In this document: positions 23,226-48,108 of the stretch, in pieces | How the letters are laid out: each line of letters begins with the position of its first letter | Numbering within the stretch: the first letter of the stretch is position 1 | Source of the DNA: Candidatus Zhuqueibacterota bacterium | GTDB lineage: Bacteria; BS750m-G25 | Assembly: GCA_016783505.1 (NCBI GenBank) | Contig: JADHWK010000004.1 | Location: 1-64,000 of the forward strand | DNA: 64,000 bases | Direction of reading: 5' to 3' | Translations under genes and position numbers: made by a program | The notes under the pieces: generated by a model | Database searches by the model: none | The model's input: only the letters and a program-made list of their open reading frames with translations | What the model was told of the DNA's origin: nothing

Positions 23226-23424
23226 TCGGTCAGGCGCCCGGGTCTGTTGCAGAACTATCGGATAGGAATCAATTCCTATCCTAAATATGACCATAATTCC
23301 AATGAATTGGAATAAATCATCCAATCCTATTTATTGGATTTACAAATAACTTATGATAGTAATTTATTGCTATCCTAAATTGGCAACGTTTGCCAGTTGT
23401 ACCACAGGCCCGCCCGACTGAAAG
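23226..23424. repeat. Hairpin-array element with terminal inverted repeats, copy A
   Basis: About 200 bp. The left end (GGTCAGGCGCCCGGGTCTGT then TGCAGAACT) matches the reverse complement of the right end (CAGTCGGGCGGGCCTGTGG then TACAACT), allowing a 3-base gap. Between them are at least five perfect or near-perfect hairpins: GATAGGAATCAATTCCTATC, ATTCCAATGAATTGGAAT, ATCCAAT/ATTGGAT, GATAGTAATTTATTGCTATC and TGGCAACGTTTGCCA. No reading frame is present. A second copy with the same ends but different hairpins lies at 47883-48108. Confidence 0.75.
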
Positions 23425-23649
23425 ACTTCTTGGTTTAGAGCATTAGGATTTTGGTCATTAGGGTTTGTTTCGGATTTCGATATTCGTCCGCCCTAGGCGG
23501 ATTCTTACTAACTTCTTGCCTTCCTCGGGTTGGGGCGAAGCTTCGTTTGTATATAGACGCATTTTTCCCCACTAGATTATGAAAAAGTGCGGGTATTAAC
23601 CCCCAGCCGGTATGACAGACGAGCTTTTTCAAAACACAAGTTAACATTC
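23425..23649. other. Gap with AT-rich repeat, no gene
   Basis: Contains TTTGTTTCGGATTTCGATATTCG, a class of low-complexity repeat also seen at 62060-62100, and a CCGCCCTAGGCGG palindrome. A 70-codon minus-strand frame here is composed of this repeat material and follows a copied promoter. I do not consider it a gene. Confidence 0.5.
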
Positions 23650-23678
23650 AATATACATTATTATTTCAAAAAATTCAA
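23650..23678 (-). promoter_or_regulatory. Second copy of the RHH promoter, without its gene
   Basis: TTGAAT (23678-23673), a 17-base spacer ending AATAATAATG and TATATT (23655-23650) on the minus strand reproduce the promoter at 18540-18568. It lies just after the SEC-C gene. No RHH gene follows here. Confidence 0.6.
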
Positions 23679-23695
23679 GAAAAACTCAATTCTTT

Positions 23696-24214
23696 TTAAG
23701 CCTTCCCGCAGCAATATTTGAACTTCTTCCCACTCCCGCAGGGGCAGGGGTCATTGCGGCCCACATTCAGGATGGCGTTGAAAACGATCTGATTCTCCTT
23801 GTACAGATTGGTGCGCAGAAAGGTCTTGCATTCATCAAAAGCCATATCGGCCCATACCCGAAGCTCCGGCTCGGGTTCGGATTCCCTTCTATACCGCTTG
23901 AGAAGGCGGTAGGCCTCAAAACTGCCCCGGTGGGCCAGGATCATCAGGGCCTTCTTTTTCTGTTTCAACGAACTTTGAGGGTCCAAAAGCACCGCCCCCT
24001 GGGCTTCGATCTCGGGAACCGAAAGGGTCTGGTAGTTTTTAGGTAACATCTTATGGGCCTTGATATAGTCCCGTGCCGCTCTGGCGGCAGGACTTTTTGG
24101 ATCATCCACGAAGGTAATGAACACGTCCTTCCCCGAATCCCGGACGGCGGAGAAAAATGCAGCGTATTCCTCCGGGCTGACGTTTTTCCTCTTTAAGAAA
24201 TCCTTCATATCCAT
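23696..24214 (-). CDS. SEC-C zinc-motif protein
   Basis: 172 residues from the ATG at 24214, selected because AAGGA lies five bases upstream; an ATG five codons earlier overlaps that site. The body is helical ([20 protein letters not shown] at the start, [20 protein letters not shown] in the middle). The C-terminus, [20 protein letters not shown], is the SEC-C Cx1Cx8CC zinc motif also found in SecA, where it contacts SecB and ribosomes. The function of stand-alone SEC-C proteins is unclear. A start-proximal motif copy lies 22 bases before the ATG. A decayed paralogous end is present at 18591. Confidence 0.75.
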
Positions 24215-24308
24215 AATGTTCCTTCTCATTTATTGAACGTCTCGGAACTTCTAAGAATTGATTAGGTTTTATGAAACATTGACGGTAACCGTCCAACGAA
24301 TAATGAAT

Positions 24309-24845
24309 CAGTCGGGCGCCTGACCGAAGAAATTAGTGGCAGTGGTTTTTTTAGTATTTACATTCCCCTCCCTTGATGGGAGGGGTAAGGGGAGGGTGAT
24401 TTGAGCAATGCTCCCTTATCAATTCTGATACTCCATATATAATTTTTAAAACCTCGTTATTCCAGAATCTTATCACTTTAAAACCTTGGTTACTAAACCA
24501 CTTCTCTCTTTTGCTATCTTTTTCAGTTTGTGTTGCATACTGTCCACCATCCAGTTCTATTATAATCCGTTTCTCAAAACAAACAAAATCAAGTATATAA
24601 TTCCCAATAGGCTGTTGTCTTCTAAACTTAGGCCCTCCCAATTGTTTTCTTCTTGGATGCTTCCATAATAACCTCTCTGCTTCTGTTGCTCTTTTTCTGA
24701 GATTTCTGGATAAAATTGTTATTTTGCTTGGCATGGTTCTTAATCACCCCCACCTTCATCCTGTTAAATAATCTATCTATTTAACAGGGCAAGCCCTCCC
24801 CCATTAAGGGGGAGGGAATCCGATAAGTCGGACGTCTGGCCGATT
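24309..24845. mobile_element. Repeat-bounded cassette carrying a DUF559 nuclease
   Basis: The DUF559 gene lies between two copies of the REP-like motif: CAGTCGGGCGCCTGACCG (24309-24326) and a diverged AAGTCGGACGTCTGGCCG (24825-24842). Just inside each is a C/G-rich hairpin: CCCCTCCCTTGATGGGAGGGG (about 24364-24384) and CCCTCCCCCATTAAGGGGGAGGG (about 24795-24817). The last codons of the nuclease gene are made of the left hairpin. A similar structure without a gene occurs at 40045-40201. Calling it mobile is inference. Confidence 0.45.
24351..24734 (-). CDS. DUF559 (VSR-like) endonuclease-fold protein
   Basis: 127 residues. NLRKRATEAERLLWKHPRRK and KFRRQQPIGNYILDFVCFEK lead to RIIIELDGGQYATQTEKDSK and VIRFWNNEVL, the conserved PD-(D/E)xK-like core of DUF559, related to very-short-patch-repair nucleases. 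The family is frequent as scattered single genes next to repeats. The C-terminal HPPLTPPIKGGE is encoded by the adjacent CCCTCCC hairpin, a common feature of such genes. Function in the cell is unknown; nicking activity is inferred from the fold. Confidence 0.85.
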   Translation of the reverse strand: MPSKITILSRNLRKRATEAERLLWKHPRRKQLGGPKFRRQQPIGNYILDFVCFEKRIIIELDGGQYATQTEKDSKREKWFSNQGFKVIRFWNNEVLKIIYGVSELIREHCSNHPPLTPPIKGGECKY

Positions 24846-24966
24846 CCAGCATTTCTGAAATGATGGAATATCGAAATACCATCCCAAGACCTGTAGGGAA
24901 ATGCTGGGTAAAAAGCTTAAACCAAATGCCATTACCCCATTATTCCATCACTCCATTATTCCAATT
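24842..24966. repeat. TGGAA-rich inverted element, copy 2
   Basis: On the minus strand it reads CCAATTGGAATAATGG through GGTTTAAGCTTTTTACCCAG to CAGAAATGCTGGAAT. The core GGTTTAAGCTTTT-ACCCARCATT is shared with the copy at 63245-63400. It sits against the 3' end of the next minus-strand gene. Confidence 0.65.
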
Positions 24967-24986
24967 GGGGCGTAGTACCTAAGTTA

Positions 24987-25988
24987 TTATTCGTAATATT
25001 TTTTCAACGCCTTCAAGGCCCTATATGTCGCCCACTTGCTCTCCCTTCCCTTGGTTTCCAGCTTGGTGTACATATTGGATACGTCCCGCGCCAGGCTCCA
25101 GCGGCCATTTTTCTGCTGTTTCGATTTCAACAGGTGGGCGGCATCGGTCATTCTTTCATCTTTAATCCCAAGGGAAAGGAGAACATCCAGGATTTCCAGA
25201 AAATCCGAATAGACGAAGGATGGAAAAGTAATCAGGTCTATGTTATTATGAAGAAGTTTAGCGGGGTTATGGCTGGATTTATAAAGACGATGGATCAGGA
25301 AAAACTCCGCCCCCCTTCTTACGTATTCTTTCACCCGATCATCCCACTGATCTTTTGGCAAAGCAGTCACTGCCTTCAGCCCTTTGAACCCGGCGTAGCA
25401 GGAGTGGGCCCCGCTGCAGCGGTCCTTCCGGCCCCGGTAAGGCCACTCTTTTGGGGTCCTAAAATTCCCGTCGTCGAAACGCTGATAGCGATACAGAATC
25501 TCGAAGCCCTTTTGAACCCTATCATCCTCTACATAGCCCAATTTGGAAAGTGCCCACAGCATGTTCCCCTGAAAACAGGGAGCCAGGGTATCAAATCCAA
25601 CAATGGTAAACAGCCCATCCTCATGGTAGCAATACTTCAGCACGTATTCGCATGTCCTTTTTATCCTTTCATCATCCCCATCGGCTCCCAGTTCGGCGAA
25701 CAGGATAAGCTGCCAGATGGTCCCCTTATATTTGGGCAGATACCCATAATTGGCAAACTCCTGCCCATATTTGCAGATGGTCTTCTCATCCACATAATGG
25801 CCATTTTCACCCAATTTTGACAGAATTTTAGGGATGGGACCTTGGGACATTATTCTCCTTTTCCAAGCCAAAACTTCCGAATCGTCTTCCGGTTTATCCA
25901 GAAGGTTCAGTAGGGTAAATGTTCGGACCGAGGGATTGTTCTCTTGTAACAGCCAATGGGTGGTTTCGTCGGACAGCGAAAAAGTCAT
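24987..25988 (-). CDS. Alpha/alpha-toroid (prenyltransferase/terpene-cyclase-like) repeat protein
   Basis: 333 residues with no signal peptide. The sequence is a chain of helical repeats: THWLLQENNPSVRTFTLLNL at the start, DDERIKRTCEYVLKYCYHEDG and GNMLWALSKLGYVEDDRVQK in the middle, and SLARDVSNMYTKLETKGRES at the end. QQKNGRWSL and HEDGLFT resemble the QW/QDGxW turns of the prenyltransferase and squalene-cyclase toroid. Homologues are widely distributed and their reaction is not known to me; some carry misleading labels. An AT-rich 450-base gap precedes it. Confidence 0.65.
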   Translation of the reverse strand: MTFSLSDETTHWLLQENNPSVRTFTLLNLLDKPEDDSEVLAWKRRIMSQGPIPKILSKLGENGHYVDEKTICKYGQEFANYGYLPKYKGTIWQLILFAELGADGDDERIKRTCEYVLKYCYHEDGLFTIVGFDTLAPCFQGNMLWALSKLGYVEDDRVQKGFEILYRYQRFDDGNFRTPKEWPYRGRKDRCSGAHSCYAGFKGLKAVTALPKDQWDDRVKEYVRRGAEFFLIHRLYKSSHNPAKLLHNNIDLITFPSFVYSDFLEILDVLLSLGIKDERMTDAAHLLKSKQQKNGRWSLARDVSNMYTKLETKGRESKWATYRALKALKKYYE

Positions 25989-26436
25989 CGTGTATCCTTA
26001 TCTATACATAAAATGGCGATGGGGAATTCCTCCGACTTTCATTCCCATTTTTCAAAGCATACGATCTCCTCAAGGTATTTCCGCTTTTTACTTTTAAAAA
26101 AGATAAACAAAAAGAAACAAATAAGCAATAGAAAAAAGAATCTCTCAGACCGCCTGATAATTTAATTTAGGACTGAAAATTAATAAGACGACAATCGTAA
26201 CCGATTTATCCGTCAGGCGCCGGACTGATTTGCCTGCCCCTAGGCGGGTCTCCCTGGGCCATGCGGTCATACGATCCGTCCTAAAGACCCGTTCCGGGTA
26301 GGAGGCTACGCTCCCAGGGCGGCGAAGCTTCGCTAAATACGTGAACAAAATTGACAAATTAACCCTACCTTCGGAAATTTAACTTCGAACTTATGGATGT
26401 AACGGACCTGGCGGTATTTTAGAATTAAAAATAAGG
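25989..26436. other. Divergent intergenic region
   Basis: No gene seen. It holds the REP-like motif CCGTCAGGCGCCGGACTGAT (26210-26229) and a GC-rich patch with CCTAGGCGGG and GGCGAAGCTTCGC palindromes (26235-26335). It separates the minus-strand block on the left from the efflux operon on the right. Confidence 0.5.
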
Positions 26437-26465
26437 TTGACTTTTATCTCTCTAAATATTATATT
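26437..26465 (+). promoter_or_regulatory. Sigma-70-type promoter of the TolC/RND operon
   Basis: TTGACT (26437-26442), a 17-base spacer and TATATT (26460-26465). Transcription from here would give a leader of about 280 bases before the TolC gene at 26754. No known riboswitch fold is recognised in that leader. Confidence 0.65.
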
Positions 26466-26753
26466 AAAGAAATTCTTATACTGCTAAATCGTGTTAAATT
26501 AATGTCATTTAAGGTGATCAGTAAGGACTCAATTTAATTTCTTCTTAGGATTTCCCAATTCCATAATTAACACCTCGGTTTTCCCAACCAACCAATTTAC
26601 CTTGCACAAAGTAAATCCCTTTCTCTAATAGTCTTCCCAATGTGGATTAACAAAGCAGTTAGTAAGCGTTGCCTGGATTTTGACTTTAGCAGAGAATCTT
26701 CCAGTTTCAAAATTAAAGTAGCTGAAGTCCCAAAAAACTAAAGGAGGTGTAGA

Positions 26754-28208
26754 ATGAAAGTAGGGATTTATTTAATCGTGCTCGTCTTGCAGATGGTTAC
26801 CATCTGTCATGCCCAGACGATAACCTTGAACGAGTTCCTCAATTTGATTCATAAGAATCATCCCCTGTTCGCAAAAGAGGAACTATCCTCGAAAATCGAG
26901 GAGAAGGGAAGAGACTCCTATCTGGGGAGTCAGGATTGGAGAATAACATCTACCCCGTATTATGCACGTCAAAATCCATTGCCCCCAGTAGTATTTGCGC
27001 CGGAGAGGGTAGATCAAACGAGCATAGGTGCGGTGGCGGAAAGAGCCTTCTGGAAGACAGGAGGTAGACTATCCCTATCCTGGTCATCAGTGTTCACCGA
27101 CCAGATTGGACTTGAGGATATTGTTATTCCCAATGTGATAACTATCCCTACCGGTCCACCCGAATTCTATCAAAATAATCTTTATCTGACCTATTCCCAG
27201 CCCCTACTCCAAAACTACAAGGGGGAACTTGACCGTCTCGGCTACGAGACGAGCCAATACTCCGTGGATGTGGCTGGGGTACAGGCGCTTGAAAACAAGG
27301 AAGAATTTCTATTGACCATGGGACTACAATTCCTGAATTGGGTTCTGCTCTCGGAACAAAAAACAATCGCCACCGAACGGCTCCATCTGGCAGAACGGCA
27401 GCTGGAACAAACCCAGAAAAAGCGGGCAGCGAACTTAGTGGACGAAGTGGATGTTCTACGGTCCGAGGACGCCGTCCGCATCGCTGAACAGGGTGTCGTT
27501 CTCATTGATGGTCTGTGGAAAGGCAATCAGGCTGAATTGGCAGTTCTTTCGCGTTCGGAGGAGCTTTATACATTGGGTCCTGAGTTTAACCTTTACGACA
27601 GGAGGGACCGCCCTACTCTTGATGAAGCCACCTCCCGACTTCGGAGCCAATCCAGGTTGTTGGAATTACTGGCCATTCAACAGGCACAATTGGAGCGGCA
27701 GCAGCGGGGGTTCGAGGAAATGACCAAACCACAACTCTATCTGAATACCCAAATCGCCCTGAAAAGCGGTGATGATAAATTCGGCGATGCCATGGGCTTT
27801 GATAAGCGCGATATGGGTGTCTCACTTCAGTTCAGTTACCCGTTGGGAAACCGCTCGGCTATCACAAAGGTTGAACAGACTGCCATCCAGGTTCGGCAAA
27901 TTAAGCTGGCAGAAGAAGAAGTTGCCCTGGGCTTAGAAGGGGGTTTACGCAATCTGCTGATACAAATCGAAGAGATAGAAAGGGTCTTATCCTTAAATGA
28001 GCGACAGATGGAAACGGCACGGCTTAAGACCCAGGAGGAGCTCAAACGATACAACCGGGGCCGCGGCGACCTGACATTTGTCATTCAGAGTCAGGACAAT
28101 GAAGAACGTGCTAAACTAACCTATGCCCAGAATGCTGCCACTTATCATGGCTTGAATCTGAGGCTCAGCGCCCTTCTGGATGAACTACTTCCTTCTAATG
28201 CTGAATAG
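26754..28208 (+). CDS. TolC-family outer-membrane efflux protein
   Basis: 484 residues with a signal peptide (MKVGIYLIVLVLQMVTICHA) and AGGAGGTG just before the ATG. The body contains two TolC-type halves rich in coiled-coil helices, such as LNEFLNLIHKNHPLFAKEEL, LHLAERQLEQTQKKRAANLV and TKVEQTAIQVRQIKLAEEEV. NLYLTYSQPLLQNY and GVSLQFSYPLGNRSAI fit the outer-membrane beta-strand segments. It should form the outer-membrane duct for the RND pumps encoded next. The first gene of the operon, 88 bases before the first RND gene, with a hairpin between. Confidence 0.88.
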   Translation: MKVGIYLIVLVLQMVTICHAQTITLNEFLNLIHKNHPLFAKEELSSKIEEKGRDSYLGSQDWRITSTPYYARQNPLPPVVFAPERVDQTSIGAVAERAFWKTGGRLSLSWSSVFTDQIGLEDIVIPNVITIPTGPPEFYQNNLYLTYSQPLLQNYKGELDRLGYETSQYSVDVAGVQALENKEEFLLTMGLQFLNWVLLSEQKTIATERLHLAERQLEQTQKKRAANLVDEVDVLRSEDAVRIAEQGVVLIDGLWKGNQAELAVLSRSEELYTLGPEFNLYDRRDRPTLDEATSRLRSQSRLLELLAIQQAQLERQQRGFEEMTKPQLYLNTQIALKSGDDKFGDAMGFDKRDMGVSLQFSYPLGNRSAITKVEQTAIQVRQIKLAEEEVALGLEGGLRNLLIQIEEIERVLSLNERQMETARLKTQEELKRYNRGRGDLTFVIQSQDNEERAKLTYAQNAATYHGLNLRLSALLDELLPSNAE

Positions 28209-28230
28209 TAGGAGTAACTTTACATTTGAA

Positions 28231-28263
28231 AACCTTGCGAAGGTTTTAAACATTCGCAAGGTT
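28231..28263. repeat. Hairpin between TolC and RND genes
   Basis: AACCTTGCGAA (28231-28241) and TTCGCAAGGTT (28253-28263) form an 11-bp stem with an 11-base loop. No T-run follows, so it may be an mRNA processing or stability element, or a dispersed repeat, rather than a terminator. Confidence 0.75.
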
Positions 28264-28296
28264 AATTCCCACACCCCAAAAAGCAGGTAACAAACC

Positions 28297-31200
28297 ATGA
28301 AATCCTTCTTTCGCTTTTTCGCCGAACGCCATTTACTGGCGTATCTTATTACTATAATGATTATATTGTTAGGGCTTAGCACCCTTGTGGGTATCAAAAG
28401 GAGCATTTATCCCATAGTGGACTTTGGGGTGACGAACATAATGACCCGCTATCCAGGTGCCTCGCCTGAGGATGTTGAACTTAATGTAACTAATAAGATT
28501 GAAGAGGAATTAAAAAGTGTAGCCGGTATTAACAGAATCACCTCCATCTCAATGGAAAATGTCTCGATTATTGACGTATACATAGACCTTGACGTGAGCA
28601 ATCAGGATAAAATCAAGATGGATATTCGGGAGGCGGTGGGCCAAGTTACAGATTTGCCCAAGGAGGTGACCGGATCGCCTCAAGTAACAGAGATGAGTAC
28701 TACCGAAATAGATGTAATCGAAGTGGGACTTTCCGGAGATATTCCATACAAGGAATTAAGAGAACTCGCCAGGCTATTAGAAAAGAAACTGAAAAACGTT
28801 CAAGGTGTCTCACGATTAGATCGATTTGGCTATCGCGCTCGAGAGATCAAAGTGGAGGCATCCCCGGATGCGATGGCGAAGTATCAAATTCCTCTGGGGG
28901 AGATCATCACCGCCATTCAAAGACGGAACATCCAGGGGACAACTGGTACCTTTGAATCCTATACCAGTGAAAAGGACCTGGTCACACTGGCTCAATTCTT
29001 CGACCCACTAGAAGTGGGTGATGTCATCGTCCGCTCCACTTTCGACGGTCCTATCATCAAGGTTAAGGACCTTGCCATTGTGAAGGATGATTTTGAGGAG
29101 GAAAAGCTCCTTTCCCGGATGAACGGTAAGCCAGCCATTTCCTTTCTCGTCTTCATCAGCGAATATGCGGACGCTATCCGAACCTGTGATGCCATCAAAG
29201 AACTTATCAATGAAGAAAGCAAAAACCTCCCTGAGGGTGTTGAGATTCAGTATGTGAACGATGAATCGCGCTATGTCCGCAATAGCTTCAATGTGGTCCT
29301 TTCAAACGGTTTGATCGGCCTTGCTCTTGTCCTCATTATTCTAACCATTATCCTGAATTTTCGTACTGCCTTTTGGGTCGCCATGGGTATTCCTGTGGCC
29401 TTATTGGGTACCATCTTTCTGCTGCCCCTGTTCGGCCAGCATCTGGATACCATTGGCCTCACCGGAATGATCTTGGTACTCGGTATCATCGTAGATGATG
29501 CTATCATAATATCCGAAAATATCACCCGTCGTAGAGAAAAGAGTGACGAACCTTTGACAGCGGCGGTAGAAGGGATACGGGAAGTATTTAATCCTGTCTT
29601 GACCACCGTGCTTACCACATTCCTCGTTTTTGTCCCCATGTTTTTCATGCCGGGAGTCATGGGAAAATCTATATTCCCTATCCCTTTAGCCATCAGTTTG
29701 GCCCTGTTCATTTCCCTGGGAGAATCAACAGTGGCACTGCCGTCACATCTTATACCAGCGATGCGTAGCCATTCCGTTAAGTCCCGCCGTCGCCACTGGT
29801 TTAGAATACTGAGTCATCGTTATCGGAATATTGTGTACCATCTCCTCAGGTTCCGATATGTGATTGTCCCCTTATTCATCATTTTTCTGGCAGGCGCACT
29901 CTGGTATGCCAGCAGTTATATGAAGTTCATCCTTTTCCCTACGGGTACCTCAGAGCATGTCTTTATCAGCAACGAATTTCTTCCGGGAACGCCATTGCAA
30001 GTTACCTCTGAAAAGACGAAGGAGATCGAAGAGATTGTGGCTAATTTACCAGGGAATGAGTTGGAGTCGTTCAGTACCCGTATTGGATTAAACCCATTCA
30101 TCAGTGGAATGCATGGAGCTGAAAGCGAAAATTACGCTGCTATTTCAGTGAACCTCACGCCTTATACAGAGAGGTCCAGGACGACTGACGAAATTGTCGA
30201 AGACCTACGGCAGAAGACGGATAAACTTCAGGGTCAGGGGAAAATTACATATCAGATTGTGGGAACGGCTCCCCCCGTAGGGAAACCCGTCAGCCTACGA
30301 ATCGTTGGGTCCAATGATAAACTGAGAACACAACTGGCAGATTCTGTGGAGGCGTTTCTGGGAAGGATTGCTGGCGTAAAGGATATCACTCGTGATGACA
30401 GAGGGGGAAAAGATCAGGTACAGATTAGAATAAACTACGAAAAACTCTCCCGATTAGGGCTCACCGTTTCTGATGTGGCACAGAACGTTCGCATTGCCTA
30501 TGATGGCGAGATCGTGACGAGTGTGCGTTACGGCGATGAAGACGTCGAATTCCGGGTCATGATTCAGGAAGAAGCCCGCAAGCGGCTGAGAGATCTGAAT
30601 GAACTCCGCATTCCCAATCGCCAGGGACGACTCATCCCGTTGAAAGAGGTCGCCTGGCTCAAAACTGGTCCCGGCCCGTCGGATTACCGGCATTTCAACG
30701 GCGAACGTGCCTTGACGATTGAAGCCGATCTCGATCAAGACATCATTACCCCATTGGAGGTGACCGACGCTGTCCTTAACCATTTTGATTTGAACAGAGA
30801 TTGGCCTGGGATGCAGCTTGCCTTAGAGGGAGAACTGTTTGAAACCGAGGAGTCCATGGCAGGTCTTTTTCTGGCGTTTATCATCGCCGTTATTGGAATT
30901 TATTTCCTCTTGGTCCTCCTGTTTAACTCTTTGACCCAACCTTTCCTGGTCATTATAGCCATCCCCTTTGGTATCATAGGGGTCATTGTCGCATTTGCGT
31001 TTCATGGCGAACCGTTCAGTTTCATGGCAATCATGGGCATCATCGGTCTTTGTGGAGTTGTGGTCAACGATTCCCTCGTCCTGGTAAGCCATATCAATGA
31101 TCTTAGACGCCAAAAAGAGGGTGAAAATGTCCTTCAAATTGTAGCAGAGGGGACCGCCAACCGCTTACGGGCAATTGTTCTGACAACCCTCACAACTGTT

Positions 31201-31377
31201 GTGGCTCTTCTACCGTTGGCTTATGGTCTCGGCGGAACATCTCCGTTTATGGCACCCATTGCATTAGCGCTGGGGTGGGGTCTGTTGCTCGCCACGCCAC
31301 TTACCCTGGTCCTTGTGCCAAGCCTGTATGCGATTGGGGGTGATATAAGCAAAATTTTTTCCCGGAATTTAAGGTAG
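28297..31377 (+). CDS. RND-family efflux permease, first tandem copy
   Basis: 1026 residues, full AcrB/MdtB-type architecture: TM1 at 13-32, a periplasmic porter domain, TM2-6, a second porter domain and TM8-12. GIIVDDAIIISEN holds Asp400-Asp401, matching the proton-relay pair of AcrB. In the TM10 motif, GLCGVVVNDSLVLV has Asn where AcrB has the essential Lys940 (GLSAKNAILIVEF). A methionine- or copper-type HME signature is absent, so a drug/lipid-type substrate is more likely. It is followed after 32 bases by a close paralogue. No membrane-fusion (adaptor) gene is in the operon. Confidence 0.93.
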   Translation: MKSFFRFFAERHLLAYLITIMIILLGLSTLVGIKRSIYPIVDFGVTNIMTRYPGASPEDVELNVTNKIEEELKSVAGINRITSISMENVSIIDVYIDLDVSNQDKIKMDIREAVGQVTDLPKEVTGSPQVTEMSTTEIDVIEVGLSGDIPYKELRELARLLEKKLKNVQGVSRLDRFGYRAREIKVEASPDAMAKYQIPLGEIITAIQRRNIQGTTGTFESYTSEKDLVTLAQFFDPLEVGDVIVRSTFDGPIIKVKDLAIVKDDFEEEKLLSRMNGKPAISFLVFISEYADAIRTCDAIKELINEESKNLPEGVEIQYVNDESRYVRNSFNVVLSNGLIGLALVLIILTIILNFRTAFWVAMGIPVALLGTIFLLPLFGQHLDTIGLTGMILVLGIIVDDAIIISENITRRREKSDEPLTAAVEGIREVFNPVLTTVLTTFLVFVPMFFMPGVMGKSIFPIPLAISLALFISLGESTVALPSHLIPAMRSHSVKSRRRHWFRILSHRYRNIVYHLLRFRYVIVPLFIIFLAGALWYASSYMKFILFPTGTSEHVFISNEFLPGTPLQVTSEKTKEIEEIVANLPGNELESFSTRIGLNPFISGMHGAESENYAAISVNLTPYTERSRTTDEIVEDLRQKTDKLQGQGKITYQIVGTAPPVGKPVSLRIVGSNDKLRTQLADSVEAFLGRIAGVKDITRDDRGGKDQVQIRINYEKLSRLGLTVSDVAQNVRIAYDGEIVTSVRYGDEDVEFRVMIQEEARKRLRDLNELRIPNRQGRLIPLKEVAWLKTGPGPSDYRHFNGERALTIEADLDQDIITPLEVTDAVLNHFDLNRDWPGMQLALEGELFETEESMAGLFLAFIIAVIGIYFLLVLLFNSLTQPFLVIIAIPFGIIGVIVAFAFHGEPFSFMAIMGIIGLCGVVVNDSLVLVSHINDLRRQKEGENVLQIVAEGTANRLRAIVLTTLTTVVALLPLAYGLGGTSPFMAPIALALGWGLLLATPLTLVLVPSLYAIGGDISKIFSRNLR

Positions 31378-31409
31378 TTTAATAACAATTAATTTAGGAG
31401 GTAACAAAA

Positions 31410-34400
31410 ATGAAATCATTCTTCAGATTTTTCGCCGAACGCCATATCCTGGCGTATCTCATCACCATAATGACCATTATCTTAGGTCTTAGCACCCTTA
31501 TGGGAATCAAACGGGACATTTATCCCCAGGTGGATTTTGGTATGATGAGCATAATGACCCGCTATCCGGGTGCTTCGCCGGAGGATGTTGAACTCAACAT
31601 CACCAACAAAATTGAAGGAGAGTTGAAAAATGTAACGGATATAGAAAAAATAACCTCTGTTTCCATGGAGAATGTCTCGGTTATCTTAGTATTTATCAAC
31701 CTGGACGCAAGTGATCAGGATAAAATCAAAAATGAAATTCGGGAAGCGGTAGGTCGGGTTACAGAATTTCCAGAGGAAGTAACCGAATCACCCCTGATTG
31801 TTGAACTCAGTTCCACTGAACAGCCAGTGATCGAAGTTGGACTTTCCGGAGACATTCGCTACAGGGAATTAAGAGAGCTTGCCCGATTATTTGAGAAAAA
31901 ATTGAAGAACGTCCCTGGTGTTTCTCGGTTAGAGAAACTTGGATATCGTGCCCGGGAAATCAAAGTGGAAGTTTCTACCAGGGCAGTTAAGGAGTATCAA
32001 ATCCCTTTAAGAGAGATCATTGCTGCTGTTAAAGGTCGCAACATCCGCGGGACAACCGGTTCCTTTGAATCCTATACCAGTGAAAAAGACCTGGTTACGT
32101 TGGCCCAATTCCGCAGTCCACAGGAAGTAGGCGACGTCATCGTCCGCTCCACATTCGAAGGCCCTCTCATCAAAGTTAAAGATCTTGCCATGGTGACTGA
32201 TGAATTTGAGGACGAAAGAGTCCTATCCCGGATGAATGGTAAATCAGCCATTTCCTTTCCCGTTTACATAAGCAAATCTGCGGATGTCATCCGAACCACC
32301 GATGCCATCAAAGAACTTGTTGAGCATGAAAGAGAGAACCTCCCTGAGGGTGTCGAGATTCTCTATTCAAATGACCTATCTCGCATTGTTCGCAATAGCT
32401 TTGATGTTGTCTTTAAGAATGGTCTGATTGGTCTGTTGCTAGTGATAATTCTTCTGCCCATTTTTCTAAACTTCCGTACCGCCTTTTGGGTCGCATTGGG
32501 CATTCCGGTGGCTTTGTTAGGCGCCATCTTTCTGCTGCCCCTGTTCGGTATGTATCTGGATACCATTACTCTCACCGGGATGATCTTGGTGATCGGTATC
32601 ATTGTAGATGACGCCATTATTATTTCCGAAAACATCTCCAGTCGTAGGGAAAAAGGGGATGAACCCCTGGAAGCGGCGGTGGCAGGAATCAATGAGGTTT
32701 TTCGTCCTGTTCTGACTACAGTTCTTACTACATTCCTGGTATTTGCTCCCATGTTTTTCATGCCGGGTATTTTTGGAAAATATATTGTCCCTATACCTTT
32801 GGCAATCAGTTTAGCCCTGTTCATTTCTCTGGGAGAGGCGATGGTGGTGCTGCCGGCACATTTAGTACCGGGGATGCGTCGCCGTCGGGTGGAGGCTACC
32901 GGTCGCAACTGGTTCCGAAATCTGAGTGACCGTTATCGGGGTGTTGTGTTTCATATTCTCAGGTTCCGATATATTTTCATTCCATTGTTCATTATTCTGC
33001 TAGTACTCGCTCTCTGGTATGCCGGAAATTTCATGAAGTTCATCCTTTTCCCTTCTGAAATGGCAGATCACTTTTTTATCGGGAACGAGCTTCCCACAGG
33101 AACTCCTTTGCAAACCACCTCTGATAAGATGAAAGAGATCGAAGTATTGGTGGCAGATTTACCTGACGATGAATTGGCATCTTTCACCACCCGGATTGGA
33201 ACCAACCCATTTATTAATGCAGAGAGCGAAAACTATGCTTATATTTCTGTGAATCTTACTCCTTATACAGGAAGGTCCCGGACTGCTGACGAAATTGTCG
33301 AAGCCCTTCGGCAAAAGACAGATGAACTCCAGGGCCAGGGAAAGATTTTCTATTTGATCTCGACAGGTGGTCCCCCGGTGGGGAAACCCATCAGCTTACG
33401 TATAGTTGGGTCCAATGATATATTGAGGACACAACTGGCAGATTCTATGGAAGCGTTCCTGGGAAGAATTAGCGGCGTGAAAGACATCACTCGGGATGAC
33501 AAGGCGGGAAAAGACCAGGTGGAGATAAACATCAACTACGACAGACTTTCCCGGCTTGGGCTGACTGTGGCAGATGTTGCCCGGAATGTTCGCATCGCCT
33601 ATGACGGTGAGGTGGTGACCAGTGTGCGCTATGGCGATGAAGACGTTGAGTTTCGGGTAATGCTTCAGGAAGAAGCCCGCAAGCGGCTGAGCTATCTATA
33701 TGAACTCCTCATTCCCAATCGCCAGGGACGACTCATCCCGTTGAAAGAAGTCGCCACGCTCAAAGCAGGTCCTGGTCATTCTGATTATCGTCACTTCGAC
33801 GGTGAACGAACCGTCACGGTGGAAGCTGATCTCGATCAAGACATAACAACCCCATTAGAGGTTAGCAAGGCTGTCTTTGACCATTTCGACTTAGACAGAG
33901 ACTGGCCGGGCATGCAACTCGCTAAAGGGGGTGAAGTAGTGGAGACTGAGGAGTCAATGGCAGGCCTCTTCCGAACGATGATAATTGCCGTTGTAGGAAT
34001 TTATTTCCTTTTAGTCCTCCTGTTTAACTCTATGACTCAGCCATTCCTGGTCATGATGGCCATCCCCTTTGGTATCATTGGTGTTATTATTGCATTTGCG
34101 TTCCATGGGGAACCGTTTAGTTTCGTGGCGATAATGGGAATAATCGGTCTTTGCGGGGTTGTAGTCAATGACTCCCTCGTCCTGGTCAACCATATCAATG
34201 ACCTCAAACGACAGCGGCGGGGTGAAAGTATCCTGGAACTTGTAGCCGAGGGAACCGGCGACCGCTTGCGGGCGATAGTCTTGACGACCGTCACTACCGT
34301 TGCTGCCCTCCTGCCGCTGGCCTATGGACTTGGCGGAACGGCTCTGTTCATGGCTCCCATGGCATTAGCGCTGGGATGGGGTCTGGTGTTCGCCACCCCG

Positions 34401-34490
34401 CTTACCCTGGTTTTGGTCCCTTGTCTTTATATGATCGGTCAGGATATACATAGGATTTTCAAAAGAGGCGGTAGGGCTCTGAAAGCATAA
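31410..34490 (+). CDS. RND-family efflux permease, second tandem copy
   Basis: 1026 residues, the same length as the preceding pump and similar throughout: both open MKSFFRFFAERH and share GIIVDDAIIISEN and GLCGVVVNDSLVLV. AGGAGGTAACAAAA lies upstream of the ATG. Differences are concentrated in the porter domains (for example RYRELRELARLFEKK versus PYKELRELARLLEKK) and the C-terminal tail. Two unequal paralogues in tandem recall MdtB/MdtC, which form a mixed trimer. That is an inference here. The TM10 Lys is again Asn. Confidence 0.93.
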   Translation: MKSFFRFFAERHILAYLITIMTIILGLSTLMGIKRDIYPQVDFGMMSIMTRYPGASPEDVELNITNKIEGELKNVTDIEKITSVSMENVSVILVFINLDASDQDKIKNEIREAVGRVTEFPEEVTESPLIVELSSTEQPVIEVGLSGDIRYRELRELARLFEKKLKNVPGVSRLEKLGYRAREIKVEVSTRAVKEYQIPLREIIAAVKGRNIRGTTGSFESYTSEKDLVTLAQFRSPQEVGDVIVRSTFEGPLIKVKDLAMVTDEFEDERVLSRMNGKSAISFPVYISKSADVIRTTDAIKELVEHERENLPEGVEILYSNDLSRIVRNSFDVVFKNGLIGLLLVIILLPIFLNFRTAFWVALGIPVALLGAIFLLPLFGMYLDTITLTGMILVIGIIVDDAIIISENISSRREKGDEPLEAAVAGINEVFRPVLTTVLTTFLVFAPMFFMPGIFGKYIVPIPLAISLALFISLGEAMVVLPAHLVPGMRRRRVEATGRNWFRNLSDRYRGVVFHILRFRYIFIPLFIILLVLALWYAGNFMKFILFPSEMADHFFIGNELPTGTPLQTTSDKMKEIEVLVADLPDDELASFTTRIGTNPFINAESENYAYISVNLTPYTGRSRTADEIVEALRQKTDELQGQGKIFYLISTGGPPVGKPISLRIVGSNDILRTQLADSMEAFLGRISGVKDITRDDKAGKDQVEININYDRLSRLGLTVADVARNVRIAYDGEVVTSVRYGDEDVEFRVMLQEEARKRLSYLYELLIPNRQGRLIPLKEVATLKAGPGHSDYRHFDGERTVTVEADLDQDITTPLEVSKAVFDHFDLDRDWPGMQLAKGGEVVETEESMAGLFRTMIIAVVGIYFLLVLLFNSMTQPFLVMMAIPFGIIGVIIAFAFHGEPFSFVAIMGIIGLCGVVVNDSLVLVNHINDLKRQRRGESILELVAEGTGDRLRAIVLTTVTTVAALLPLAYGLGGTALFMAPMALALGWGLVFATPLTLVLVPCLYMIGQDIHRIFKRGGRALKA

Positions 34491-38721: not shown

Positions 38722-38774
38722 TAGTTCCCACCCGAAGGAATAGGATGAAGAGGGGGGAATTATATATTTACTTT

Positions 38775-40037: not shown

Positions 40038-40044
40038 ATCTGCT

Positions 40045-40201
40045 CAGTCGGGCGCCTGACGGATAATGGGAGGGATCAGGGGTAAATGAATCAAAATATT
40101 CTCCTTTATTCTTATCTACCCCCACCCTAACCCTCCCCCATTAAGGGGAAGGGAATCCAATCAGTCGGGCATCAGTTAGACATCAGTCCGGTGCCTGACG
40201 G
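40045..40201. repeat. Gene-less counterpart of the DUF559 cassette
   Basis: Begins with CAGTCGGGCGCCTGACGG (40045-40062), contains CCCACCCTAACCCTCCCCCA with its AAGGGGAAGGG partner (40118-40152), and ends in a further REP-like copy, CAGTCCGGTGCCTGACGG (40184-40201). The inner hairpin and the following AATCCAATCAGTCGGGC match the right end of the DUF559 cassette at 24795-24835. No reading frame is inside. Confidence 0.5.
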
Positions 40202-40255
40202 ACCTCACTAATCTGACCGGCCTGCCCAGTGCCCCAAAGGGGCTAAATTCAAATT

Positions 40256-41584: not shown

Positions 41585-41604
41585 ATAGCTGAGACTAACT
41601 AATT

Positions 41605-41645: not shown

Positions 41646-41873
41646 TTAGGTTATATTGTAATCGTATTGGAGATAAAATAGGGTAAATACCCCTCCTTTT
41701 GAACTAATCAGTCTGGTCATTTCTGCCGTTACTTAAGGTATAATGATTCTTTTCCAAAGATCGTTTCCCCCTGGCCGGGCAGGCAAGACCCTTCGGGTCC
41801 CAAGACCTCTAGGGCCGACAAGGTTCAACCTTGAAAGAACAGATGCCCCACCGCACCACTGCACCTCTTCTTT

Positions 41874-42332: not shown

Positions 42333-42373
42333 CCCTATTTCCTCCCCTATATCATTACTTCCAAACAAACTGT

Positions 42374-42895: not shown

Positions 42896-42899
42896 TCAA

Positions 42900-43457: not shown

Positions 43458-43527
43458 GGTTTCTTCCCATTCAACGGCTTTCAAACACGGTCACAGACCC
43501 TTCAGATTAAACCTCTTCCTAATATGT

Positions 43528-44532
43528 TTATTTTTTATGCCACTTAATAAGTTCAGCCCCATCTTTTTCAACAGATAGATGATATATATTCCCTTTAATA
43601 TCAATGGCTACATCCCTCTTACAACCAAAGGTAGAGAGTGTTGGAAAATTATCTATTACAACAATTGAGGTACCAGACTTATCTATCTTTCTGATTTCTC
43701 GCAAATACTTAGTAATACCTCCGACCCGTTCATGTTTAGTTACCGCCAGATAAACGTTTCCAATAGTATCATCACCTAAAAATTCCACACTACCCACCTC
43801 TTCCATTACAGTTAATTCAAAGCTTCTTATTCCCATTCCTTGAAGATCCAATTTCTTAATACGGACTGAATGTTTGTCCCCTATCTGTTCAGCGGCGTAA
43901 AAACTAATAGTCGGGTCATTAAGATTGGGGACTCCTTCTATTATTTCCTTAGGTTCAAGTAAATCGGATTTCCCAGCACTAAGGCTAATCTGGCACACTT
44001 TCGCTTGATAACCCAAATAAAGGTTTCCCTTATGATCAACAAAAATTTTTTGGGGAATAATTCCGGTTTCTTTAAGCCAATCCCTGGAGAAGGGAAAACA
44101 AGCCTTAAAAATCAACACGCCCTGTTGATCGTATTTCCTTATTTCATAAGGGGTCAATCCAAATCTGGAACCATGGACGTCAAGGTAATCCATATACTGG
44201 CTAATCTCTGGACTTGTATCCAGAACATATATATTTCCATCTTTATCTATGCAAAAATCATAGCCCGTCTGTTTTTTCCCTTCATCAATCGAAATACTAT
44301 TTAAGAATTTTCCTTTATTATCATACTTCTGAATCTGACGATTCCCCGTATCAAGGATGTAAATATTTCCCAATTTATCTACTGCTATGCTTCTTGGTCC
44401 TGCCAATACACCCTCCTCCCTAATACCAAGATGATATGGCCCCGGTTGACCATCCCGGGGATTCCAAAAACCAGGTGTAAATCGTATCAAAACCTGGGAC
44501 ATGTACTTTTCTTTCCCGGAGCTATAAGGCAC
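43528..44532 (-). CDS. NHL-type (six-bladed) beta-propeller protein; exported leader out of normal start
   Basis: 334 residues from a GTG. Repeated blades are visible: GPRSIAVDKLGNIYILDTGN, DFCIDKDGNIYVLDT, KIFVDHKGNLYLGY and DVAIDIKGNIYHLSVEKDG. These are NHL-like repeats of a structural or ligand-binding propeller. In the same frame the DNA continues upstream to 44640 as KRNVYSVINILFPLFSVIVF then TAGNAKV, which looks like a complete signal peptide, but no ATG, GTG or TTG precedes it before the stop at 44644. Either a noncanonical start or a one-base error near 44615 (an ATG exists in another frame there) is likely. Probably an exported protein. Confidence 0.7.
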   Translation of the reverse strand: MPYSSGKEKYMSQVLIRFTPGFWNPRDGQPGPYHLGIREEGVLAGPRSIAVDKLGNIYILDTGNRQIQKYDNKGKFLNSISIDEGKKQTGYDFCIDKDGNIYVLDTSPEISQYMDYLDVHGSRFGLTPYEIRKYDQQGVLIFKACFPFSRDWLKETGIIPQKIFVDHKGNLYLGYQAKVCQISLSAGKSDLLEPKEIIEGVPNLNDPTISFYAAEQIGDKHSVRIKKLDLQGMGIRSFELTVMEEVGSVEFLGDDTIGNVYLAVTKHERVGGITKYLREIRKIDKSGTSIVVIDNFPTLSTFGCKRDVAIDIKGNIYHLSVEKDGAELIKWHKK

Positions 44533-44672
44533 TTTTTCTTCTCCGGTAACTTTGGCATTTCCTGCTGTAAAAACTATTACGCTAAATAGGGGAAATAAAA
44601 TATTAATAACAGAATAAACATTCCTTTTCGTTTCGTCCTCTTCTTATATTTGCTTTTTCTGTTTATTTTTTT

Positions 44673-44771
44673 CTAATGAAGAAACACTTTTTTTAGCAAT
44701 TCTTTTTCTTTCTTCAAATCAATCATATATAGCGCCAACTCTTCAATCTTCTGCAGGAGCTTTGCCTGCAT
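44673..44771 (-). pseudogene. Fossil coiled-coil C-terminus of a tail-fibre-like secreted protein
   Basis: From ATG 44771 the frame reads [20 protein letters not shown] and ends KKVFLH. The same frame extends upstream to a TTG at 44819 as [13 protein letters not shown]. The [18 protein letters not shown] pattern resembles the C-terminal ends of chaperone or tail-fibre-domain secreted proteins in FCB genomes, as far as I can recall. No body of such a protein is present upstream, because the radical SAM gene ends there. It may be a leftover end, or a tiny coiled-coil peptide. Confidence 0.4.
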
Positions 44772-44815
44772 TTCCCCTACGTTAACCCCATTTGCACGAA
44801 GTTTTTTGCAGTGAA

Positions 44816-45901
44816 TCAATAAGTTTTTAAAAAATGCCTAACCACCCCGGCGATTTCATCGTTAACATTCCGAATCCCCCCTAATTCCCCTCTTTCAGCC
44901 ACATCTTTTATACTCTCCTTCAGGTTGTTGATGTTCACCGCCGCCCATTGAGTATTGCTAAAGGGCTTTCCCTCAAGCTGGGCCAGGTAAGCTTTATCCG
45001 CCAGATATTGGGCGATCTGGTAGTTCAGCTTCCGATAGTCATCGGGGATGAAACGCTTCATCCGGATGGGCACCCCGTATTCCTGTGATAGCTTTAAGAC
45101 CAGCCGGTTGACCCTTCGTTCATAGCTCCTCACCGGCCCGTAGGCCCCCGGGGGATAGACGGTGTTGTAGTCTTTGACCAATTCCGGATAATACTTTTCC
45201 AGATGCTCGAACAAATACTCCCTCTGCCCCTCGGCCACGGTCATTCCCCCGAAGATGACGAAATCCACTCCCGCCTCCTTGGATTTTTCCAGAACATCCC
45301 GAATGTTCTCTTCGGTATCCAAAAGGAAAGGCAATAAGGGACAGCACATAATCCCCACCTGCAGCCCGGCTTCCTTGAACTTTACCAGCATCTCCCGCCT
45401 TTTTTCAGGGCTGACCGCCCGGGGTTCAAAGGCACGGCTGATCTCAGGATCGAAGGTGATGATTGTGGTTGCCACCGTGGCCCAGCGGCTTTCGCCAATC
45501 TCCTTGATCAATTCCAGATCCCGTAAAACCATAGTAGATTTGGTGAGCATGAACAGGGCGTAGCGGTGTTTCAGGATGACCTTAACCATAGCCTGGGTGA
45601 TCTTTTCGGTGGCCTCGACTGGCTGATAGGCGTCCCCGGCGGAGCCGAAGGCGATGATGTCGGGAAGCAGGGTACGGGCGTTGGTCAACCTCTTGTCCAG
45701 CATTTCCGCCGCCCCCCGCTTGATATAAACCGTATCCCCAAAGTCATCGTGCATATAATACCGCTTACTCCGGGTGTCGCAGTAGACGCAGGCGTGCTCG
45801 CAGCCCTGGTAGGGGTTAACGGCGTATTTATCCCAGAACCAGGTATCGGTATATTTGCGGACAAGGAGGATGGATTTGAATTCTTTGACTTTATATTCCA
45901 T
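44816..45901 (-). CDS. SPL-like radical SAM protein
   Basis: 361 residues from the ATG at 45901. [20 protein letters not shown] has the CxxxCxxC cluster motif (Cys34, Cys38, Cys41). [17 protein letters not shown] and [18 protein letters not shown] are typical of the spore-photolyase-like subgroup (the Rv2578c type), which is widespread in non-spore-formers. C-terminal [17 protein letters not shown] follows. It probably acts on DNA or another nucleic acid, but no direct evidence is visible. The Cys that abstracts a hydrogen in SplB cannot be confirmed by eye. Repeats lie directly upstream. Confidence 0.85.
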
Positions 45902-45969
45902 TTTCAATAAAAATGATATTGTAATATTATTATCTAATTATAATTACATTATGCTACATTTGTTTATCC

Positions 45970-46030
45970 GTTGCTTCAAGGTTGCACCTTGAAGCATTAC
46001 AAAAAACCTTCCAGTCAGGCACCCAACTGA
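45970..46030. repeat. TGCTTCAAGGT hairpin copy 2 plus REP-like motif
   Basis: TTGCTTCAAGGTTGCACCTT and its partner (45971-45995), then AACCTTCCAGTCAGGCACCC running to AACTGA (46012-46030). The first part matches 41605-41645 closely. A CCCGAAGTTTCGGG hairpin follows at about 46063-46077. Confidence 0.7.
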
Positions 46031-46147
46031 ACCGAAAACCACACAATGATGTCCCGTCCCGAAGTTTCGGGATCGGGACAACCGACAGCCGTTTTACGTA
46101 AACTACAAATTATTTTGGAAAATTCTTAGAAATTCCGAGACGTCCGG

Positions 46148-46366
46148 TTAACTCCCGCTCACCACCGTTTTGATCATCTCCACCAATTTCTTCCGCTCTT
46201 CAGGATTGGCCCGGTGTTCTTTGACCTTTCTCCATACATGGGAGCAGTCGTCACCGAATTGACCGGATGCCTTCAGGAATTGATCGAACTTCTTACGGTT
46301 CTCCCTGGTTCTCTCCACCCCGGCCTCGGCGAACAGGTCGTCTAAGTGTCTGGTGTAGCACGACAT
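46148..46366 (-). CDS. Conserved small protein of unknown function
   Basis: 72 residues: MSCYTRHLDDLFAEAGVERT, then a helical body with Lys/Glu, and a C-terminal VEMIKTVVSGS. The MSCYTRHL opening is one I recall from small conserved proteins in archaea and several bacterial phyla; no function is known. GAGG lies about seven bases before the ATG. A reverse-oriented copy of the start-proximal motif (46121-46143) lies at its 3' end. The gap to the next gene holds a REP-like palindrome and the CCCGAAGCTTCGGG hairpin. Confidence 0.65.
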   Translation of the reverse strand: MSCYTRHLDDLFAEAGVERTRENRKKFDQFLKASGQFGDDCSHVWRKVKEHRANPEERKKLVEMIKTVVSGS

Positions 46367-46495
46367 GATGTCCTCCCTTTGAATTTAAATTCACAGGCTT
46401 TGACACGGTTTGCAACCGTGTCTTTTTCAGACAATACCTGGATTATTCTATTCAAAACCTATTTGTCTCTTCCCGGACTAGCGTGGGGGTAAGCA

Positions 46496-46517
46496 TCAGT
46501 CAGGCGCCCGACTGATA
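46496..46517. repeat. REP-like palindrome, best-conserved copy
   Basis: ATCAGTCAGGCGCCCGACTGAT is an almost complete palindrome (two mismatches in 22 bases). It represents the dispersed family with further copies at 4981, 14883, 24309, 26210, 40045, 40184, 46012, 48096 and 62097. Confidence 0.8.
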
Positions 46518-46649
46518 AGTGATCTCCTGGTGCATGATAAGGATAAATTCCAAATTCCAAGCACCAAATCCCAAACAATATCAAATGACAAATCCCGAAG
46601 CTTCGGGATGGAATTTTTAACAACATGGGGATAGCATTATGGTTTACCA

Positions 46650-47849
46650 TCACCCAAACTTCCCCACCTTTTCCAACCTTTCCAGCAGGGCCGAAAGCCT
46701 GATCCCCGTTTTGTAGAAAATCACCTCGCCTTCAAAGTCCTCCTTGGAACAGTTCAATTTCTCATTCACCGCCACGATGAGATTTTTCCGGCCCGCCTTC
46801 CGGATCTTCTCTAACTTATATTTTAGGTATTCCGGCGTCCAGAATCCGATGATTTCCAGCATGGCCACCCTGCCGTCTTTATGTCGAAAAGTGAAATCGG
46901 GGATGAGAACGATATCCCCCAGATCAATTACCTCCCCCTCCCTTTCCAGCACCCAATCCCTGGTTTTACGATTGAATTTCCTGGCAAAGGACTCCTCGAT
47001 ACGGCTGTCGAAGGGATGCTCCCTTCGGTAATGTGAAGTGAGACCACATGTATGATCCAATCCGAACCCTTTTGGTCCCCAATCTGTATTGACCTCAGCC
47101 TCCATCTTCCACTTATTTGCCAGCAGAAGACCGGGCAGAAACAGGGCCATCTGCACCCCGTATTTCTGAGTATTGCGGAACAGGGAGGCGGGGCCGTCCA
47201 ATACTATTTTGTATCCGGAGGGTTCTAAACTCCTGATAAGGTGGATCAGCCTGGCTAACTTGATGTATTTAAACACCACTTTGTAATCGCTAAACAGGTA
47301 GACCTGCAACCGAACGGCCCGGTAGAGCAGGGCCTGGGCCAGGGCTACGTTGTAGCGCCGCACCAGGTCGGGGGGGCGGATCCGGTCGTCAAAATGGATC
47401 AGCACCTGGTTTTCGGGAAGATCACCGTAAAGGTGGGTTTCTAGTTCGGTCCGGGCAATCCCTAACGAACTGGCGACAGCTTCCAGCACCGACCCTCTTT
47501 CCGTTCGATAGATCAGGTCCGGTTCCCTGACAACGGGGTAGGCCCTCTGGGCTTTTGAGAAGATCTCCTGTCTCACCGCCTTATAATCCCAGTCCTTGGC
47601 GGGTCCAAATTGACACTTCTCCTCCAATAGTTTGGCCAATCCCCGATAGATTTTATAATCGGTCCTCCGCCCATAGGCCACCCCGACGGCTTCCTCCAGT
47701 TCCCCGCGGGTCTTCCCCCTGTGGTTCCGATATATCTGAATTAAAGATTCGGAGATGGTCAAGTACTGTTCGCTTTCCCCACGGGTAATATACAAGGGAT
47801 AAACCTGGTTTCCAACCACCCGACAGCGCAACAAATCTGAGGTTAACAT
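46650..47849 (-). CDS. bax1: Bax1-type nuclease, DUF790 (partner of XPB)
   Basis: 399 residues. MLTSDLLRCRVVGNQVYPLY is the typical DUF790 opening. ARTELETHLYGDLPENQVLI and RYNVALAQALLYRAVRLQVY are other family segments. Near the C-terminus, GDIVLIPDFTFRH and AMLEIIGFWTPEYLKYKLEK form a PD-(D/E)xK-like nuclease core (Asp in IPDF, Glu in LEIIGFW, Lys in KYKL). In archaea Bax1 binds XPB and cuts bubble or flap DNA. It is downstream of the XPB gene here, separated by 428 bases that contain a hairpin-array element. The functional link is inferred from known archaeal pairs. Confidence 0.88.
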   Translation of the reverse strand: MLTSDLLRCRVVGNQVYPLYITRGESEQYLTISESLIQIYRNHRGKTRGELEEAVGVAYGRRTDYKIYRGLAKLLEEKCQFGPAKDWDYKAVRQEIFSKAQRAYPVVREPDLIYRTERGSVLEAVASSLGIARTELETHLYGDLPENQVLIHFDDRIRPPDLVRRYNVALAQALLYRAVRLQVYLFSDYKVVFKYIKLARLIHLIRSLEPSGYKIVLDGPASLFRNTQKYGVQMALFLPGLLLANKWKMEAEVNTDWGPKGFGLDHTCGLTSHYRREHPFDSRIEESFARKFNRKTRDWVLEREGEVIDLGDIVLIPDFTFRHKDGRVAMLEIIGFWTPEYLKYKLEKIRKAGRKNLIVAVNEKLNCSKEDFEGEVIFYKTGIRLSALLERLEKVGKFG

Positions 47850-47882
47850 AGTATCACTCCCCGATCAGACATCGCCGGTTAG

Positions 47883-48108
47883 GTCAGTCTGGCGCCTGGG
47901 CTTGTGGCACAACTCTGAAATCATCGTAAAGATCTTGGGACTGGTTTCCCCTTTGCGTGATAATAAATTATCACGCTATTTCAAAGAAAGTCCCGAAACT
48001 TCGGGACTGATTACAGTATGTCTCAACATACTTTATTTGTATTAGCATAGGAATTTATTCCTAATGCGATAGTCCTGCAACAGGCCCGCCTGACTGACGC
48101 CCGACTGA
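47883..48108. repeat. Hairpin-array element with terminal inverted repeats, copy B
   Basis: The left end (GTCTGGCGCCTGGGCTTGTG then GCACAACT) is the inverse of the right end (GGACTATCGC reversed, reading CCTGCAACAGGCCCGCCTGA). Inside are GCGTGATAATAAATTATCACGC in two arms, GTCCCGAAACTTCGGGAC, AGTATGTCTCAACATACT and a GCATAGGAATTTATTCCTAA hairpin. Relative to copy A the orientation is reversed: its right end matches A's left end, and its left end matches A's right end. Apart from one related AGGAAT hairpin the insides differ. It lies between the XPB and Bax1 genes. Confidence 0.75.

Follow-up and report, generated by a model that had tools for sequence, protein, structure and literature searches.

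Two hairpin arrays of a Candidatus Zhuqueibacterota bacterium as probable copies of a REP-targeting transposon family

Two stretches of about 200 bp in the DNA of a Candidatus Zhuqueibacterota bacterium (positions 1 to 64,000 of contig JADHWK010000004.1, assembly GCA_016783505.1; this whole 64,000-nucleotide stretch is called the window) share inverted ends, yet enclose mostly different hairpins. What kind of element keeps its ends and changes its contents? Read directly, with features located exactly, copy A occupies 23225-23421 and copy B 47884-48109, within a few bases of where an earlier reading of the letters (the sequence-only reading) had put them. That reading was also right that the copies lie in opposite orientation (in A the GCAGAACT end is the left one, in B the right one), that A has five hairpins and B four, all of which could be located by coordinate, and that an AGGAAT/ATTCCT hairpin adjoining the GCAGAACT end is common to both. 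We conclude that A and B are very probably copies of a single non-autonomous transposon family, one that targets palindromes resembling repetitive extragenic palindromic (REP) sequences and for which a DDE-type transposase would supply the movement in trans.

Ends, duplications and target of the family

The genome searched was the window's own (2.5 Mb in 89 contigs, ~60% complete), and genome-wide counts come from search matches together with extracted stretches of contigs. Searches with copy A and with copy B each gave dozens of matches. The sequence-only reading had allowed for a chance similarity of ends in these two places; instead, extraction of paired ends gave at least 28 distinct complete members of 153-238 bp (31 listed rows minus two spurious pairings and one composite row). 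In these copies the true element limits are GGGYCTGTTGCAGAACT...AGTTGTGCCACAGGCCC, with a 17-bp terminal inverted repeat, GGGYCTGTKGCASAACT, which is not self-palindromic. Outward of this repeat (GTCAGGCGCC...) lies a REP-like palindrome of 20-22 bp, one half on each side. Hence, the conserved terminal inverted repeats first described are real, but GGCGCCYGGGYYTGTKGCA, taken as their core, is a composite of two different things: GGCGCCY is half of the dispersed palindrome that serves as target, and GGGYYTGTKGCA.. is the transposon end proper.

The check for target-site duplications recommended at the outset found duplications of 4 bp, exact in 22 of the 28 copies and agreeing at three or more of the four bases in 26. 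They follow the local target variant (GCCC/GCCC, GGGC/GGGC, AGGC/AGGC, GCCT/GCCT, AGGT/AGGT, GGGA/GGGA). Random re-pairing of left and right flanks gave a mean of 6.5 exact matches and a maximum of 16 in 20,000 trials, against 23 observed in the 31-row list. Joining the flanks and removing one duplication gives TCRGTCRGGCGCCYGACYGA. Although extraction required the ends only and demanded no REP flanks, every true end pair proved to lie inside a REP, with REP halves on both sides in 28/28 complete copies. The target palindrome, TCAGTCGGGCGCCTGACCGA, occurs uninterrupted at 106 sites when up to 3 mismatches are allowed, whereas its reversed control pattern occurs at 1; REPs thus make up ~0.1% of the genome, yet all insertions land there. 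As all 28 elements sit in a REP-like palindrome, we read the family as a REP-targeting, non-autonomous transposon of the miniature inverted-repeat transposable element (MITE) type. The elements have no coding capacity, overlapping only short, probably spurious open reading frames (ORFs). Their anatomy is that of a MITE with the autonomous partner missing. The earlier contrast with a standard MITE therefore holds in part: ends, size, lack of genes and duplications are those of a MITE, whereas strict insertion into REP palindromes and a modular, palindrome-built interior are not. Nor is this a CRISPR array, as had been said, the hairpins being different palindromes at irregular spacing.

The target has the palindromic form, the length (within 20-40 bp) and the high copy number of REPs, extragenic placement having been examined for the element-interrupted copies; no constant GTAG or CGTC tag was found on it among the 38 listed copies. 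Nine uninterrupted REP-like palindromes lie within the window. Concentric nesting of one REP in another was seen, for example, there and in other stretches (L087, L004, L086), and the right flank of copy B is likewise a REP half within an outer REP half. As a separate observation, the palindrome CCCGAANNTTCGGG has six sites in the window (1153, 23144, 46058, 46594, 47992 and 63419), with 0 expected in shuffles; five of the six sites lie outside the element family, which makes it another dispersed palindrome.

A changeable interior built of palindromes

Four subfamilies can be told apart by their interiors: A with 3 copies, B with 11, C with 12 and D with 2. Comparison of the further copies showed hairpins gained, lost or re-tipped and modules exchanged. 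The right end GCAACGTTTRCYAGTTG is common to subfamilies A and C, and copy L037 joins a B interior to a C right end. One B hairpin is absent from L007, a hairpin tip has been lost symmetrically from L020 and L077, and L009 carries a larger inserted repeat. In L010 the sequence AGTCC-ATTTTAAT-GGACT stands where other copies have AGTCC-CGAAGTTTCG-GGACT, so that the base of the stem is kept and the tip differs. The earlier proposal, a mobile element that is non-autonomous and whose hairpins come and go, is thus well supported by the inverted repeats, the 4-bp duplications, the one precise target and these single-hairpin differences. Elsewhere (L040:1474-1856), a truncated B-type element and a D-type element meet at a REP junction that both share, and this hybrid suggests recombination between neighbouring copies.

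At several loci the interior of copy A also occurs by itself, with no transposon ends and between inverted GGATAGGAAT...ATTCCTATCC-type palindromes; its minimal form is a doublet (L079, L082). Such GGATAGGAAT../..ATTGCCATCC doublets, found in L013, L074, L079, L082, L008, L022 and L029, have the make-up of a REPIN (REP doublet forming a hairpin). The system is one of palindromes nested within palindromes, the element lying in a palindrome and its interior consisting of others. Many inner hairpins are members of other dispersed palindrome families, and the interior probably changes by gain or loss of single palindromes, by tip replacement and by recombination between copies.

Three unrelated repeat contexts provided pairs of sequences with and without a REP, the difference being exactly 20 bp with no duplication. 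In the first, L031 (and L028) differs from other B copies at the junction ...CCTA^TGCG...; in the second, L069 differs from the downstream part of L028 at ...CGTA^GCCC...; in the third, L074 differs from L013 and L029 at ...TTTA^TTGG.... These pairs are direct sequence evidence for REP insertion or precise loss, and we take the direction to be gain because the REP is a genome-wide repeat. The REP copies of L069 and L070 (C1:154 and C1:3533) are part of a longer repeat (GCCGAATACCGAAGGCCGT) with another occurrence near L028:1612, and nearby segments of L069 and L070 are also alike. A tentative extension, to which we give somewhat less than an even chance, is that single 20-bp palindromes are complete mobile units that insert without duplication, prefer other palindromes as targets, one another and the interiors of transposons among them, and build the hairpin arrays of the transposon by repeated nesting. 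In the main explanation, the REP itself would move as a single-stranded hairpin by means of a Y1/HUH enzyme, the chemistry of which duplication-free insertion resembles.

The strongest competitor concerns the interior only. The hairpins could be immobile, their variation arising from replication template-switching that makes or perfects palindromes, with recombination between copies. The retained stem base of L010 and the symmetric tip losses of L020 and L077 are what template-switching would give, and the hairpin deletion in L007 is compatible with slippage. An exact 20-bp gain of a genome-wide REP sequence at three unrelated sites requires a donor, however, and the intact copy A interior is present elsewhere. 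We therefore regard template-switching as an unlikely source of the interior, although one to be taken seriously.

The mover and the other readings

In the proposed mechanism a transposase would recognize the ends and direct them to a single point of the 20-22 bp REP-like palindrome, where 4 bp (RGGC or GCCY) would be duplicated. For MITEs in general, inverted repeats with a constant short duplication denote a DDE-type transposase acting in trans, and the inverted repeats and constant 4-bp duplication seen here argue for the same. Insertion sequences (ISs) of several families target REPs, among them IS1397, ISKpn1, IS621, ISPa11 and ISRm22 (PMC1525189), and IS1272 of the IS1182 family targets inverted repeats, replacing the stem-loop (PMC5678879). 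The mover may be close to this palindrome-targeting IS1182 kind; the palindromic target fits that family (PMC5678879), of which DUF772 and DDE_Tnp_1_6 are marker domains.

Several results weigh against the proposed explanation. An autonomous element with the same ends was not found in the ~60% complete genome, in the genome HyVt-408 described below, or in surveys of 196 and 386 genomes. DUF772 is absent from the own genome (an assembly 60% complete), and DDE_Tnp_1_6 is absent from both it and HyVt-408. DDE_Tnp_1 genes are present in these two genomes, but the family's ends do not border them. The own genome's three good Y1 transposase genes, considered as REP carriers, have no REPs adjacent. 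Finally, no orthologous empty site was shown in a sister genome, there being no close relative for comparison.

When one end was used to scan species genomes of the Genome Taxonomy Database (GTDB), the same ends turned up in HyVt-408, a metagenome-assembled genome of the Ignavibacteria. It has at least seven complete elements with a different interior (GTCATTTCGA...). Their duplications are mostly of 4 bp and in many cases form a palindrome's loop; examples of the target are CCACGACC-TAAA-GGTCGTGG and CCACGAGC-TGAA-GCTCGTGG, the first of which is also present as solo copies. In one relative of HyVt-408 there is a lone element, which encloses two different hairpins and lies in GGC-TTAA-GCC, with TTAA duplicated. 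In these two genomes together, most duplications lie at the centres of palindromes. Because the Ignavibacteria elements combine these ends with other hairpins and with palindromic targets, the transposase family may be one that recognizes hairpins both as structure in the target and as content of the element. Among the 386 bacterial genomes surveyed there was no further convincing copy. Matches in Sphingomonas (from the genome scan) and in G438 were apparently chance matches in coding sequence, and G553 had one possible end with no partner. The five matches to the end sequence in IMG/VR apparently lie within coding sequence and have no matching second end, and a literature search for a related end sequence found none. 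The HyVt-408 interiors start with GTCATTTC; compare a long imperfect palindrome of the window at 17673-17718 (TTGTGAGATTCTTCATCCCGAT/ATCGGGATTCAGAATGACAAAA), a sequence similar to which (GTCATTCTGA..GAATCT) is inserted in element copy L009.

Could the arrays be clusters of the bacterial interspersed mosaic element (BIME) or REPIN type, moved only by a REP-associated tyrosine transposase (RAYT) of the Y1/HUH kind, with the transposon ends merely another REP-like unit? The genome does contain REP-like palindromes, inverted doublets and nested clusters, as well as Y1_Tnp genes, and REP dimers inside other palindromes are on record (PMC3733652). Three features make this explanation improbable. The 17-bp ends lack the self-complementarity of a REP unit and in HyVt-408 accompany another target palindrome; the Y1 genes are not flanked by these repeats; and the elements have 4-bp target duplications. 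HUH enzymes of the IS200/IS605 kind are not known to make such duplications.

The least probable explanation, and one we reject, is the earlier suggestion of a structured RNA, taken here as a conserved regulatory or catalytic molecule in which selection on the fold maintains the copies. Both copies have very stable predicted multi-branch RNA folds (z-scores of -7.2 for A and -6.5 for B, with 0/200 shuffles as stable), the spacers that hold most copies are probably transcribed, and diverged 22-bp palindromes of the AATNNATT type keep their pairing by double changes (covariation 0.417 versus 0.196 shuffled, 0/500). The proposed test for compensatory changes in the hairpins, however, gave nearly none within subfamilies (1/57 and 1/45 predicted pairs), the number, order and sequence of hairpins vary between copies, and an Rfam scan matched no element and only a tRNA. 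Covariation across palindromes is also expected if perfect palindromes are the mobile units, and double changes across diverged palindromes with almost none within subfamilies indicate that the units are palindromes. The copies as they now stand are too much alike, or under too little constraint, for an argument of selection on an RNA.

Placement and relation to known systems

Features of the two copies and the solo palindromes of the window are collected in Table 1.

Table 1 Positions of the elements, their hairpins and the REP-like palindromes in the window
Feature	Positions	Strand	Remark
Left half of interrupted REP-like palindrome (ATCGGTCAGGCGCCC)	23225..23239	+	ends in GCCC, the left target-site duplication
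Element A (subfamily A), GGGTCTGTTGCAGAACT...AGTTGTACCACAGGCCC	23240..23411	+	172 bp
Hairpin A1, GGATAGGAATCAATTCCTATCC	23260..23281		22-bp palindrome; an identical one also lies outside the element elsewhere in the genome
Hairpin A2, ATTCCAATGAATTGGAAT	23296..23313		
Hairpin A3, TCCAATCCTATTTATTGGA	23320..23338		alternative pairing in predicted fold
Hairpin A4, GATAGTAATTTATTGCTATC	23355..23374		with A1 bounds the REPIN-like cluster that occurs alone elsewhere
Hairpin A5, TTGGCAACGTTTGCCAG	23380..23396		end module common to subfamily C
Right duplication GCCC and right half of REP-like palindrome (GCCCGACTGA)	23412..23421	+	
Left half of interrupted REP-like palindrome (TCAGTCTGGCGCCT)	47884..47897	+	last 4 bases GCCT are the duplication
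Element B (subfamily B)	47898..48087	-	190 bp; orientation opposite to A
Hairpin B1, GCGTGATAATAAATTATCACGC	47955..47976		absent from sister copy L007
Hairpin B2, AGTCCCGAAACTTCGGGACT	47989..48008		tip replaced in sister copy L010; core CCCGAANNTTCGGG dispersed through window
Hairpin B3, AGTATGTCTCAACATACT	48015..48032		
Hairpin B4, GCATAGGAATTTATTCCTAATGC	48045..48067		relative of A1; REP palindrome inserted here in sister copies L031 and L028
Right duplication GCCT and right REP half, within second, outer REP half (GCCTGACTGA + CGCCCGACTGAT)	48088..48109	+	concentric nesting
Solo uninterrupted REP-like palindrome, ATCAGTCGGGCGCCTGACCGAT	14881..14902		
Solo REP-like palindrome	24307..24328		
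Solo REP-like palindrome	46495..46516		
Solo REP-like palindrome	62094..62115		
Concentric nest	40160..40218		REP in REP in REP

Apart from overlaps with short ORFs (up to about 110 codons), all copies are intergenic, and 24 of the 28 stand between co-directional genes, so that many are probably transcribed. Copy A is upstream of carAB and copy B directly upstream of a DUF790 gene; an effect of the elements on neighbouring genes is possible. They would seem to be mostly tolerated parasites in transcribed spacers rather than regulated RNA. In the region 46650-49651 the DUF790 gene, likely encoding a Bax1-type partner nuclease, adjoins an XPB-like helicase gene, and element B lies exactly between the two, about 35 bp before the DUF790 start. 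Elsewhere in the window, two tandem ORFs of 1026 aa each (28297-34490), the first an AcrB-type resistance-nodulation-division (RND) pump, follow an outer-membrane efflux gene (26754-28208).

Bacterial MITEs such as Correia/NEMIS, ERIC, RUP and Nezha are likewise short, non-coding, intergenic and strongly folded, with terminal inverted repeats and a target-site duplication; the present family differs in inserting only at a single point of a REP palindrome and in having a changeable set of palindromes, not one sequence, as its interior. With REPs, BIMEs and REPINs (PMC3116915, PMC3733652) it shares 20-22 bp palindromes in more than 100 copies and, in the interior of copy A, inverted doublets with hairpin spacers, but no GTAG/CGTC tag was seen as part of the unit and no flanking RAYT was found. 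REPIN work holds that only doublets are mobile and that singlets are defunct remnants (PMC3116915), whereas here single palindromes appear to insert alone. The REP-targeting ISs (PMC1525189) and IS1272 (PMC5678879) insert with the same specificity for REPs or other inverted repeats; the present elements differ from them in being gene-less and small, and from IS1272 in making a 4-bp duplication in place of replacing a stem-loop. The BOX elements of pneumococcus (PMC3049150) also have conserved ends, variable interior modules, a stable fold and repeats inserted into one another, but vary the number of one tandem module (boxB), whereas the present family exchanges different hairpins and targets a palindrome.

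The association of REPs with other palindromes (PMC3733652) and modular repeats of the BOX kind (PMC3049150) are thus precedents; what seems new is the full nesting together with before/after evidence for insertion of a single REP. MITEs, REPs and REPINs, normally separate, are joined in one nested system in an uncultured lineage, and the before/after pairs are evidence that a bare 20-bp palindrome can insert, contrary to the view that only doublets do so. If single palindromes are indeed mobile, the result would be a self-assembling ecosystem of hairpins.

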